Source: Mailhella sp.
Lineage (GTDB): Bacteria; Desulfobacterota; Desulfovibrionia; Desulfovibrionales; Desulfovibrionaceae
NCBI GenBank assembly: GCA_029258655.1
Contig: JARHYD010000111.1
Span: 1-35,507 of the forward strand
Direction of reading: 5' to 3'
Length of the DNA: 35,507 nt
The notes beneath the pieces were generated by a model that made no database searches, was not told the origin of the DNA, and worked only from the letters and a program-made list of their open reading frames with translations. Made by a program: the position numbers and the translations under genes. Below are positions 2,824 through 22,432 of the stretch, piece by piece (position 1 is the first letter of the stretch; each line of letters begins with the position of its first letter).

Positions 2824-3015
2824 ACAGCCCTCTTGTGGGTAGGTTTTACTCTTTGTATAAAGTAATGCAAAAATGACTTATTTTTAACATTTTATTATAT
2901 AGAGTATCTCATCTTTACCCTAAGTTATTAATTTATGTCAACTATGGGTAAAATATCACAAAATATTTAAAAAAAAAGTTGTATTAACTACAATTTTGAA
3001 TTTTATTTTTTCTAA

Positions 3016-3239
3016 GGAGTGTTTTTAAATTAATCTTATTTTTTTCTTTTTTGGGGGTTGTACTGTCTTTATCCGTAACTTCCTATGTTAAGGCATTAAT
3101 AAAAATTTTTCTCCTAAAAAAGTTCTTTGTTTTACATCGTAACTATAAGTATTTTATAATATTATTATATTGTAAATCTTGAATGTTTATTATTAAGGAA
3201 CGAAGTTTAATAATTATGAATAATTTGAAAACATACCTT
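3016..3239 (-). repeat. MITE-like dispersed repeat, copy E (inverted orientation)
   Basis: Starts ggagtgtttttaaattaatctta and ends aataatttgaaaacatacctt (inverted ends). The interior, reverse-complemented, aligns along most of its length with the 17360-17631 copy. Confidence 0.7.
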
Positions 3240-3277
3240 AAATGAAATAAGAGTTCTGTTTTTTTGTGTGGTAAAAG

Positions 3278-15328: not shown

Positions 15329-15353
15329 TATTATTTTTATTTATATTTAGTTA

Positions 15354-15545
15354 GAGTTTGTTTTAAAACTATTTATATTCAATAGATAAAATAAATAACT
15401 TTTCTATTTTTGAGAAAAAATTTTCTACTCATACCCTAAAATAGGTAAATTTATTGAAACGTCTTGTAATAAGTTTGCTTGATTGAGGGGGCTTGGGGGA
15501 AATCATTTCCCCCAAAGAAAAAATAAAATTAATTTAACATTATTA
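15354..15545 (+). repeat. MITE-like dispersed repeat, copy A
   Basis: Left end gagtttgttttaaaactatttata resembles the family end; contains the perfect hairpin ttgggggaaat-c-atttcccccaa (15493-15515) and the degenerate hairpin ggtaaatttattgaaac...; the right end is degenerate. Confidence 0.65.
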
Positions 15546-15579
15546 TAAAACATAATAAAAAATATTTATAAAAATAACT

Positions 15580-16236
15580 ATGTCTAGAAAAAAATCATTA
15601 AGTTTTAGAAAAGAACAAGCTGAAAAAGTGCTACGTGGTTTGCAAGAACGTTATCCTGTTCCAGAAACACATTTACAGCACAAGAATGCTTGGGAACTTC
15701 TTATTGCCACAGTGCTTTCTGCTCAATGTACAGATGCACGCGTAAATATGGTAACACCACATTTATTTGCAAAATGGAAAGATCCCTTTGCTCTTGCAGA
15801 GGCAGATATAAAAGAAGTGGAAGAAGTTATTCGTTCCACAGGATTTTATAAAAATAAAGCAAAAAATATTGTTGGAGCTGGAAAAGTTATTGCTACAAAA
15901 TATCATGGGCAAGTGCCTAAAACAATGGAAGAATTAATTCAAGTTCCAGGTGTAGCAAGAAAAACAGCTAATGTTGTTTTATATACAGCTTTTGGAATAA
16001 ATGTAGGTTTAGCAGTGGATACGCACGTTAAACGAATTACTCATAGGTTAGGATTAACAAATTCTACTGATCCTATACAAGTAGAAAAAGATTTAATGGA
16101 AGTTTTTCCTCAAGAAGAATGGGGGAATGTTAATCATAGGCTTGTTTGGTTTGGTCGGCATATTTGCGATGCAAGAAAACCTTTATGTGAAGAATGTGAA
16201 TTTAATACTATCTGTCCAAAATTAGAACCAAAATAG
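15580..16236 (+). CDS. nth: Endonuclease III
   Basis: 218 aa; LLIATVLSAQCTDARVN, IRSTGFYKNKAKNIVGAGK, VPGVARKTANVVLYTAF, VDTHVKRITHRLGL, C-terminal 4Fe-4S CDARKPLCEECEFNTIC. Confidence 0.96.
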   Translation: MSRKKSLSFRKEQAEKVLRGLQERYPVPETHLQHKNAWELLIATVLSAQCTDARVNMVTPHLFAKWKDPFALAEADIKEVEEVIRSTGFYKNKAKNIVGAGKVIATKYHGQVPKTMEELIQVPGVARKTANVVLYTAFGINVGLAVDTHVKRITHRLGLTNSTDPIQVEKDLMEVFPQEEWGNVNHRLVWFGRHICDARKPLCEECEFNTICPKLEPK

Positions 16237-16239
16237 GAG

Positions 16240-16375
16240 AAAATTTTTTTACGAATACCTTAACTAGGTAAATTTATTGAAACCTGTTTCAATAAATTTA
16301 CTTGATTGAGGGGGGTTGGGGGAAATCATTTCCCCCAAAGAAAAAATAGAATAAGATTAATTTAGAAACATACTC
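16240..16375 (+). repeat. MITE-like dispersed repeat, copy B (left part missing)
   Basis: Perfect hairpin gtaaatttattgaaac-ct-gtttcaataaatttac (16268-16301), hairpin ttgggggaaat-c-atttcccccaa (16316-16338), right end gattaatttagaaacatactc. Confidence 0.75.
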
Positions 16376-16505
16376 TATTTTGTTTTTATGGGGAATAATG
16401 GAGAGGTATATTTTAGTCTATTTATTGAAAAAGCTAAAAAAAATCAATTAGTAGTATGAATTTTTATAAGATTTAGTAAAAAAATAACATGAAGTAGGAG
16501 TTATC

Positions 16506-17357
16506 ATGCCAAGAAAAACAATTTTGAATATTATAGAAGCTAAAAATACAAAAAAACTCTCTATGATTACAGCTTATGATGCTACTAGTGCAAGAATAGC
16601 AGAAAAGGCTGGCGTAGACATGATTCTTGTTGGGGATTCCTTAGGTATGACCATGCAAGGAAATAATGATACAAATAGTGTTAGCCTTGACGAAATGATA
16701 TATCATATTAAAATAGTAGCTAAAAATGCTCCGAATACTTTTATTGTAGCAGATATGCCTTTTATGAGTTATGAAGTAAGTAAAGAGCAAGCCTTAGAAA
16801 ATGCAGGTCGTATTTTTAGGGAAACTGGTGCTAGATCTGTAAAAATGGAAGGTGGTAAAAATATTCTTCCACAAATTAAAGCCCTTACTGGTGCAGGCAT
16901 ACCTGTAATGGGACATTTAGGCTTAACGCCTCAACGTTCTGCTATGTTAGGTGGTTTTAAAGCTCAAGCCAGAACAGCAAAAGGAGCAAAAGAACTTTTG
17001 GAAGAAGCAATAATATTGCAAGAAGCAGGCTGTTTTGCTCTTGTTTTAGAAGCTGTTCCTTATACTGTGGCAGAAATTATTACGCAAAAATTACAAATTC
17101 CTACTATTAGCTGTGGAGCAGGAAAATATTGTGACGGGCAAGTATTAGTTTTCCATGATATGTTAGGCTTATCTGATTTTACTCCTCGTTTTGTAAAAGT
17201 GTATGCAAATTTAGCAGAGCAAGCAACGCAAGCTATTAAAACATATATTCAAGAAGTAGAACATACACAATTTCCAGAAGAAAAACATTGTTTTACTATG
17301 CCACAGGAAGAATGGGAAAAATTTTTACAAGAAATTAAAACTAATGATAATAATTAA
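16506..17357 (+). CDS. panB: 3-methyl-2-oxobutanoate hydroxymethyltransferase
   Basis: 283 aa; MITAYDATSARIAEKAGVDMILVGDSLGMTMQG, VADMPFMSYEVS, VKMEGG, PVMGHLGLTPQ, LVLEAVP, ISCGAGKYCDGQVLVFHDMLGL. Confidence 0.96.
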   Translation: MPRKTILNIIEAKNTKKLSMITAYDATSARIAEKAGVDMILVGDSLGMTMQGNNDTNSVSLDEMIYHIKIVAKNAPNTFIVADMPFMSYEVSKEQALENAGRIFRETGARSVKMEGGKNILPQIKALTGAGIPVMGHLGLTPQRSAMLGGFKAQARTAKGAKELLEEAIILQEAGCFALVLEAVPYTVAEIITQKLQIPTISCGAGKYCDGQVLVFHDMLGLSDFTPRFVKVYANLAEQATQAIKTYIQEVEHTQFPEEKHCFTMPQEEWEKFLQEIKTNDNN

Positions 17358-17359
17358 TT

Positions 17360-17631
17360 TAATGTGTTTTAAAAGTAGTTATAAGTATTAAATTTTGTTC
17401 TCTAATAATAGAAATAAAATATTTGCAATGTAATAGTATTAGAAAATAGTTATCGTTACAATGTGAAAACAAAGAACGTTTTTATTTTTGGAAAAAAATT
17501 TTTTATGAATGCCTTAACGTAGGCAAATTTATTGAAATGTATTTCAATAAATTTGCCTAATTGAGGGGGCTTGGGGGAAATTATTTCCCCCAAAAGAAAA
17601 AATAGAATAAGATTAATTTAGAAACATATCC
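17360..17631 (+). repeat. MITE-like dispersed repeat, copy C (most complete)
   Basis: Degenerate left end taatgtgttttaaaagtagttataa; right end taatttagaaacatatcc; perfect hairpin taggcaaatttattgaaat-gt-atttcaataaatttgccta (17520-17559); hairpin ttgggggaaat-t-atttcccccaa (17571-17593). Confidence 0.78.
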
Positions 17632-17661
17632 TAATTTAAAAGGTTTATAAAAAGCAAAATC

Positions 17662-21660: not shown

Positions 21661-21673
21661 GTATTTAATTTAG

Positions 21674-21744
21674 TTATCTTTCTAAATTATTTTTAGCTAT
21701 TAGACTTCAATTTCTAATAATAAATATAAAAGATTTACAATGTA
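21674..21744 (+). repeat. Fragment of the dispersed repeat (left-end part)
   Basis: tttctaaattatttttagctattagacttcaatttctaataataaatataaaagatttacaatgta aligns with the left half of the 26298 and 17360 copies. Confidence 0.5.
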
Positions 21745-21924
21745 GGGTGTGTTTCTAAATTAATCTTATTTTATTTTTTCTTTGGGGGAAATGATTTCCC
21801 CCAAGCCCCCTCAATCAAATAAAATTATTGGAACGTATTTCAATAATTTTGCTTGATTGAGGGGAGAAAATTATTTCATTTTAGCCGTTGTGACGTAGGA
21901 AGTTACGGATAAAGACTATAATTT
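21745..21924 (-). repeat. MITE-like dispersed repeat, copy D (rearranged composite)
   Basis: Begins gggtgtgtttctaaattaatctta (inverted right end); hairpin ttgggggaaat-g-atttcccccaa (21782-21804); large imperfect inverted repeat cccctcaatcaa...ttgattgagggg; 21-nt taggaagttacggataaagac (21896-21916) is an inverted exact match to 3065-3085. Confidence 0.7.
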
Positions 21925-21990
21925 GGGTGTGTTTCTAAATTATTTATAATTACTTTACTATATTAGACTTATAAAATAAAAAATATTTTT
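21925..21990 (+). repeat. Fragment of the dispersed repeat (left end)
   Basis: gggtgtgtttctaaattatttataatta; shares an 18-nt direct repeat gggtgtgtttctaaatta with 21745, exactly 180 bp away. Confidence 0.5.
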
Positions 21991-22009
21991 ATAAAGTCAT
22001 TGAGTTAAG

Positions 22010-22250
22010 AAGTTTCACTCTCTGGAAGTGAGGAACAAAGCGAGTTCTTGAAAGAGTGTGTATCAGAAAGAACTCCTTGGGGGCATTGCTTGGGGGTGGA
22101 GGGTGAGAGCTACTACCCAAAGGGTGACAAAGTCGTTTCCCTTATACGGAGTTTACAAGGTTTAGGGAAATAGACAGCAACGGGGGCTTCCCTCGTTAGC
22201 GTACTCCCTGCTCGGAACTTTCAGATTTAAGGGGGTGAAACACCTTATAA
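22010..22250. other. GC-shifted noncoding island of unknown nature
   Basis: Visibly richer in G/C than its surroundings; many short complementary segments; no ORF in the supplied track. Confidence 0.5.
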
Positions 22251-22432
22251 AACTTGATACTATGTATAATAGTATCATAAATAAGAAACTGTTATATAAA
22301 GAAGAAAAGTAAAAATAATTTAGAAAAATACGTTATTTGTTGTTATATTGGCTAAAATAAGGTAACGTCACTAAAAATATAGCGTATCTAGCTTAGTTAT
22401 GAAATTAAATCTCCTATACTTATAGAAAATTA

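Follow-up and report, generated by a model that had tools for sequence, protein, structure and literature searches.

Three consecutive intergenic spacers of a Mailhella genome (folD-nth, nth-panB and panB-priA) carry the same block of noncoding DNA. We consider it very probable that this block is the core of a ~275-bp IS5-type MITE moved in trans, in which hairpin 1 is palindrome-corrected and hairpin 2 is a captured, older palindrome. The initial annotation of the window (the whole stretch of 35,507 nucleotides analysed here) had proposed a dispersed noncoding element with compensatory hairpin arms in all three spacers. Both proposals hold, and the block corresponds to a 145-nt repeat family at 15388, 16211 and 17466; what had been overlooked are the terminal inverted repeats (TIRs), and with them the IS5-type MITE nature of the element. 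The IS5-derived MITE is a kind already known; the unexplained part is a palindrome that occurs across the bacterial family.

Anatomy and copy number of the element

A full copy opens, at its 5' side, with a left TIR and ~120-150 bp of AT-rich DNA. A weak left hairpin comes next, then hairpin 1, GAGGGGG-N and hairpin 2 (TTGGGGGAAAT-N-ATTTCCCCCAA), and an A-rich tract leads to the right TIR. The ends are degenerate TIRs (TAGGGTGTGTTTCTAAAT...ATTTAGAAACACACCCTA), as would befit a non-autonomous DNA transposon. A TA dinucleotide occupies both tips and is probably the target duplication, which is indistinguishable from TIRs that themselves contain TA. MITEs of similar size with TA termini, which are intergenic and form stem-loops, have been described (PMC5896051, PMC10969869).

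Copy C, in the panB-priA spacer, is the most complete of the window (17360-17633, + strand). The block had previously been drawn too small: copy C begins at a degenerate left end at 17360 and finishes at 17633 with the right TIR (17616-17633, ATTTAGAAACATATCCTA). Between these lie hairpin 1 (17521-17558, AGGCAAATTTATTGAAA-TGTA-TTTCAATAAATTTGCCT), GAGGGGG (17563-17569) and hairpin 2 (17571-17593); the last two form the G5-N3-hairpin 2 module (17563-17593, GAGGGGG-C-TTGGGGGAAATTATTTCCCCCAA). Copy A, in the folD-nth spacer (15352 to approximately 15541, + strand), has an eroded right end and consists of a degenerate left TIR (15352-15369), an imperfect hairpin 1 (15443-15480), GAGGGGG (15485-15491) and hairpin 2 (15493-15515). 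Copy B, in the nth-panB spacer (16237-16377, + strand), is cut short on the left by the stop codon of nth, and retains hairpin 1 (16266-16303), a G-run from 16308, hairpin 2 (16316-16338) and the right TIR (16360-16377, ATTTAGAAACATACTCTA). As the initial annotation stated, hairpin 2 is perfect in all three spacer copies, and the arms of hairpin 1 are perfect in copies B (~16 bp) and C (19 bp).

A fourth hairpin 2 lies inverted at 21782-21804, within copy D (21743-21922, - strand). Here a perfect TIR (21743-21760) precedes hairpin 2, which is followed by hairpin 1 and then by a long form of the hairpin-2 region. In total, the window holds eight exact hairpin-2 half-sites, compared with ~1 expected from shuffles (≤1 mismatch allowed).

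The element, which contains no genes, is present in ~150 copies. In the 2.14-Mb genome, hairpin 2 has 167 matches (≤2 mismatches), the string GAGGGGG-N-TT-hairpin 2 has 149, and hairpin 1 has ~157; each reversed-pattern control gave none. Thus, the possibility that few further copies exist can be set aside. The TIR sequence TAGGGTSTGTTTCYAAAT (≤1 mismatch) has 162 matches genome-wide and none for the reversed control. Individual copies were read in stretches of the genome taken around them. Among 120 copies, about half have a left TIR (≤6 mismatches), whose usual position is -217 or -188 relative to hairpin 2, and about half have a right TIR at ~+42; shuffled TIR controls gave none with fewer than five mismatches. 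In approximately half the copies no TIR can be recognised at one end or at both, which counts against a MITE.

The same TIR also bounds further MITEs whose contents differ. Furthermore, ~11 of the 19 hairpin-1 sites that have no listed hairpin 2 carry a long form instead (~46 nt between ATTTC and CCCCC), and the remaining sites are mostly decayed short forms. The element is therefore a modular IS5-type MITE family.

Further MITEs lie elsewhere in the window. One at 3013-3240 has a TIR at either end, and part of the long form (TTGTACTGTCTTTATCCGTAACTTCC) stands in place of hairpin 2. Nested insertions occur 3' of a tRNA gene (21670-22335), where a MITE remnant with a TIR-like end at 21670-21687 holds copy D. 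A second MITE type (21923-22335, GTTTCACTCTCTGG...) abuts copy D; this type recurs at L264-L266 and L279-L282.

A probable IS5-family partner and the placement of copies

Elements with the ends of the MITE also occur as insertion sequences. A decayed 833-bp element with these ends is present in this genome (L267, 231-1063) and contains a DDE_Tnp_1 fragment (E = 1.5e-12). A near-intact 832-bp element with the same ends is present in G004, a complete genome from the same genus (L293, 1481-2312), and encodes a two-frame transposase that matches the NF033580 IS5 family transposase (E = 6e-41 and 4e-24). No intact transposase was found in the present assembly, the remnants being broken or partial; this counts against the MITE reading, although the genome is split into 166 contigs. 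Because the insertion sequence in G004 and the decayed one here share the MITE ends, we infer that the mobiliser is an IS5-family element. Its transposase, encoded elsewhere on an 832-bp insertion sequence with the same TIRs, would move the element in trans. The 832-bp insertion sequence thus links the element to the IS5 family (NCBIfam NF033580, transpos_IS5_3), whereas the element in the window encodes no transposase.

Copy C fills nearly all of the panB-priA gap, which is 304 bp long here. Two sister species, Desulfovibrio sp. UBA8003 (L139) and an uncultured Mailhella (L140), have a few to ~50 bp between the two genes, and in each the compared panB-priA stretch lacks both the TIR and hairpin 2. 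This comparison concerns insertion length between species and is not a strain-level empty site.

Nearly all copies lie in DNA between genes. At most one of 121 copies lies inside an ORF, itself doubtful (99 aa). With genes predicted by a simple ORF criterion, convergent contexts hold 40 of the 121 copies, tandem contexts 43 and divergent contexts 8, and the remainder lack a callable neighbour to one side; because the background sample was drawn around the copies and is no fair control, only the direction of this bias is claimed. We propose that insertions into genes or promoters are lost, so that copies accumulate in intergenic DNA, mostly near the 3' ends of genes. The element itself probably has no host function.

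That copies face gene 3' ends could also be expected of a functional RNA or 3'-end element (a terminator, a protector of mRNA ends or a small RNA) whose copies are kept for their role. The copies fold very stably as RNA, with z-scores of -6.1, -4.7 and -4.2 on the + strand and -6.6 on the - strand of copy C, and hairpin 2 is conserved between genera while the pairs beside it covary; both agree with such a role. We nevertheless regard it as unlikely. No U tract follows either hairpin on either strand, hairpin 2 being followed by an A-rich tract on the + strand and by CCCCCTC on the - strand. A terminator scan detected three sites against 2.3 expected, none of them at hairpin 2. With no T run and a scan at chance level, we reject a role as Rho-independent terminator. 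Apart from tRNA, no Rfam family exceeded its gathering score in the window, and the panB-priA spacer of the sister species does without the element.

Compensatory change in hairpin 1

The arms of hairpin 1 differ between copies and stay complementary within them. Across 99 alignable copies, 1553 of 1683 cells are Watson-Crick pairs (92%), compared with 1452 ± 6 when arms are shuffled among copies. Pairing thus lies ~16 standard deviations above arm shuffling, a figure that overstates significance as the copies share ancestry. Independently of the shuffle statistic, the same copies show 65 compensated double changes, spread over many positions and of many types, against 125 one-sided changes. 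Compensation at chance level can therefore be dismissed.

Two mechanisms had been offered for this pattern: selection on structure and palindrome correction. If a + strand RNA were selected, G-U mispairs should outnumber A-C mispairs; we observe 46 of the G-U type on the + strand and 40 of the A-C type, which are equal within error (p = 0.59). Without a preference for wobble pairs, RNA-structure selection on hairpin 1 is rejected; the same result speaks against the functional RNA discussed above. The loops of hairpin 1 are seen in both orientations (TTTA/TAAA, CTTG/CAAG, TAAG/CTTA and CGTA/TACG), where a four-base coincidence by chance is possible. Template switching is known to yield both compensatory changes and loop inversions (PMC8794818). 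The lack of wobble bias and the loops in both orientations thus favour palindrome correction in DNA over selection on RNA as what keeps the arms complementary. Template switching during DNA replication (quasipalindrome correction) would be the main process maintaining them.

Confusion of palindrome correction with RNA selection touches many covariation claims. With ~150 copies, known ends, a named partner insertion sequence and dozens of compensatory changes, this element offers a natural data set for telling the two apart.

A family-wide palindrome probably captured by the MITE

Hairpin 2 occurs independently of hairpin 1. Approximately 20 sampled copies come after other hairpins. At least four such hairpins, some of them terminator-like, each stand a short and constant distance before GAGGGGG and hairpin 2 (L051, L076 and L121; L085 and L130; L080, L096 and L098; L064 and L092). 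As the G-run trails several hairpins, targeting of stem-loops in the manner of group IIC introns was considered; no intron sequence was seen.

The pattern G5-N3-G5-AAAT-N-ATTT-C5 recurs across this bacterial family, in 13 genera or more; 53 of the 288 family genomes compared carry its form G5-N-TT-G5-AAAT-N-ATTT-C5 (≤2 mismatches). In an order-wide sample, 42 of 297 genomes carry the module with any N3, every carrier belonging to this family, and none of ~60 sampled genomes of sister families has the G5-N3-G5 module. The 32 copies of the hairpin-2 module examined from outside the genus all lack the TIR beside them. Between genera, the two flanking base pairs that extend the stem covary (TT/AA, CC/GG, CT/AG, TC/GA, GT/AC and AT/AT). 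To judge from this distribution, hairpin 2, together with the G-run before it, is an older and REP-like family palindrome, separate from the MITE, which would have picked it up and amplified it.

Among sampled copies, GAGGGGG and hairpin 2 are 99.5% conserved, compared with 92% for hairpin 1. This higher conservation could mean selection, in copies mostly chosen by hairpin 2; the near-invariance of hairpin 2 in this genome is partly ascertainment for that reason. An almost invariant sequence, a perfect palindrome in many copies, might also serve as the binding site of a nucleoid or segregation protein, given a 23-bp palindrome at ~160 sites. This seems highly improbable, because copy number varies widely, many genomes of the family have no copies, and the flanking pairs change jointly while the palindrome is preserved.

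Y1 transposases are known movers of REPs. The copies might accordingly be REPs or REPINs mobilised by a RAYT, a Y1 tyrosine transposase reading hairpin 2 as single-stranded DNA, with the two-sided palindromic layout of other genera representing a REP and an inverted REP. Several relatives do show an arrangement, [hairpin]-C5-centre-G5-[hairpin], that resembles a BIME or REPIN, and the intergenic, convergent bias of the copies would fit as well. Nonetheless, a search for Y1_Tnp (PF01797) found nothing in this genome or in further genomes rich in copies, G169 and G084 among them. Within the 288 genomes of the family, 18 of the 53 that carry the module have Y1, as do 105 of the 235 non-carriers (p = 0.17), which is no positive association. 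The copies that were read have GAGGGGG-NNN before hairpin 2 where a GTAG-type tag would be expected beside it, and copies in this genus often carry DDE-type TIRs. With no Y1 in the genome and no association across the family, we reject RAYT as the mobiliser here, and think it improbable that the copies are elements of this kind.

The element shares with REP, BIME and REPIN sequences (PMC8266576, PMC3116915) the form of short intergenic palindromes, ~150 in number and in some cases arranged as inverted pairs that flank a variable centre, but differs in lacking the GTAG tag and, in this genome, a Y1 transposase. REP-containing MITEs are already known from QMITE2 of Coxiella burnetii (PMC5896051; reviewed in PMC10969869). 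QMITE2 is a 150-190-bp MITE, mainly in 3' untranslated or intergenic DNA; a repetitive extragenic palindrome lies inside it, and some of its copies are shortened and have no TIRs (PMC5896051). It has other TIRs, direct repeats of 7-11 nt and a GTAG REP, whereas the present element has IS5-type ends, TA tips and an internal G5-N3-G5-AAAT-N-ATTT-C5. We found nothing relevant on REP or MITE elements in Desulfovibrio, and no earlier report of this element, in the open-licence literature; phage records had no match to the block.

An IS5-type MITE that captured the palindrome thus remains our preferred explanation for the copies in this genome. More tentatively, G5-N3-G5-AAAT-N-ATTT-C5 may constitute an undescribed REP-like class of one family that spreads without RAYT, beside many unrelated hairpins, and that an IS5-type MITE acquired and amplified to ~150 copies in one genome; we hold this to be a possibility rather than the probable case. 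The family-wide palindrome poses the question of how a REP-like sequence can spread where genomes lack RAYT.

Genomes of other genera have 35-105 copies of the G5-N3-G5 palindrome (G228, G229, G223 and G169). In genome G067, a tandem array of 141-bp units (L219, 1500-1810) has a hairpin and a G5-N3-G6 palindrome in each unit. A second dispersed hairpin with a G5-spacer-G5 plan (AAAAGTTTTGTAAGGGGGTTATAGGGGGAGAAACTTTTTCAAAAGTTTTCCCCCT) occurs at L065, L121 and L301 and at ~130-190 of the window, and similar sequences are found in relatives (L034 and L237).
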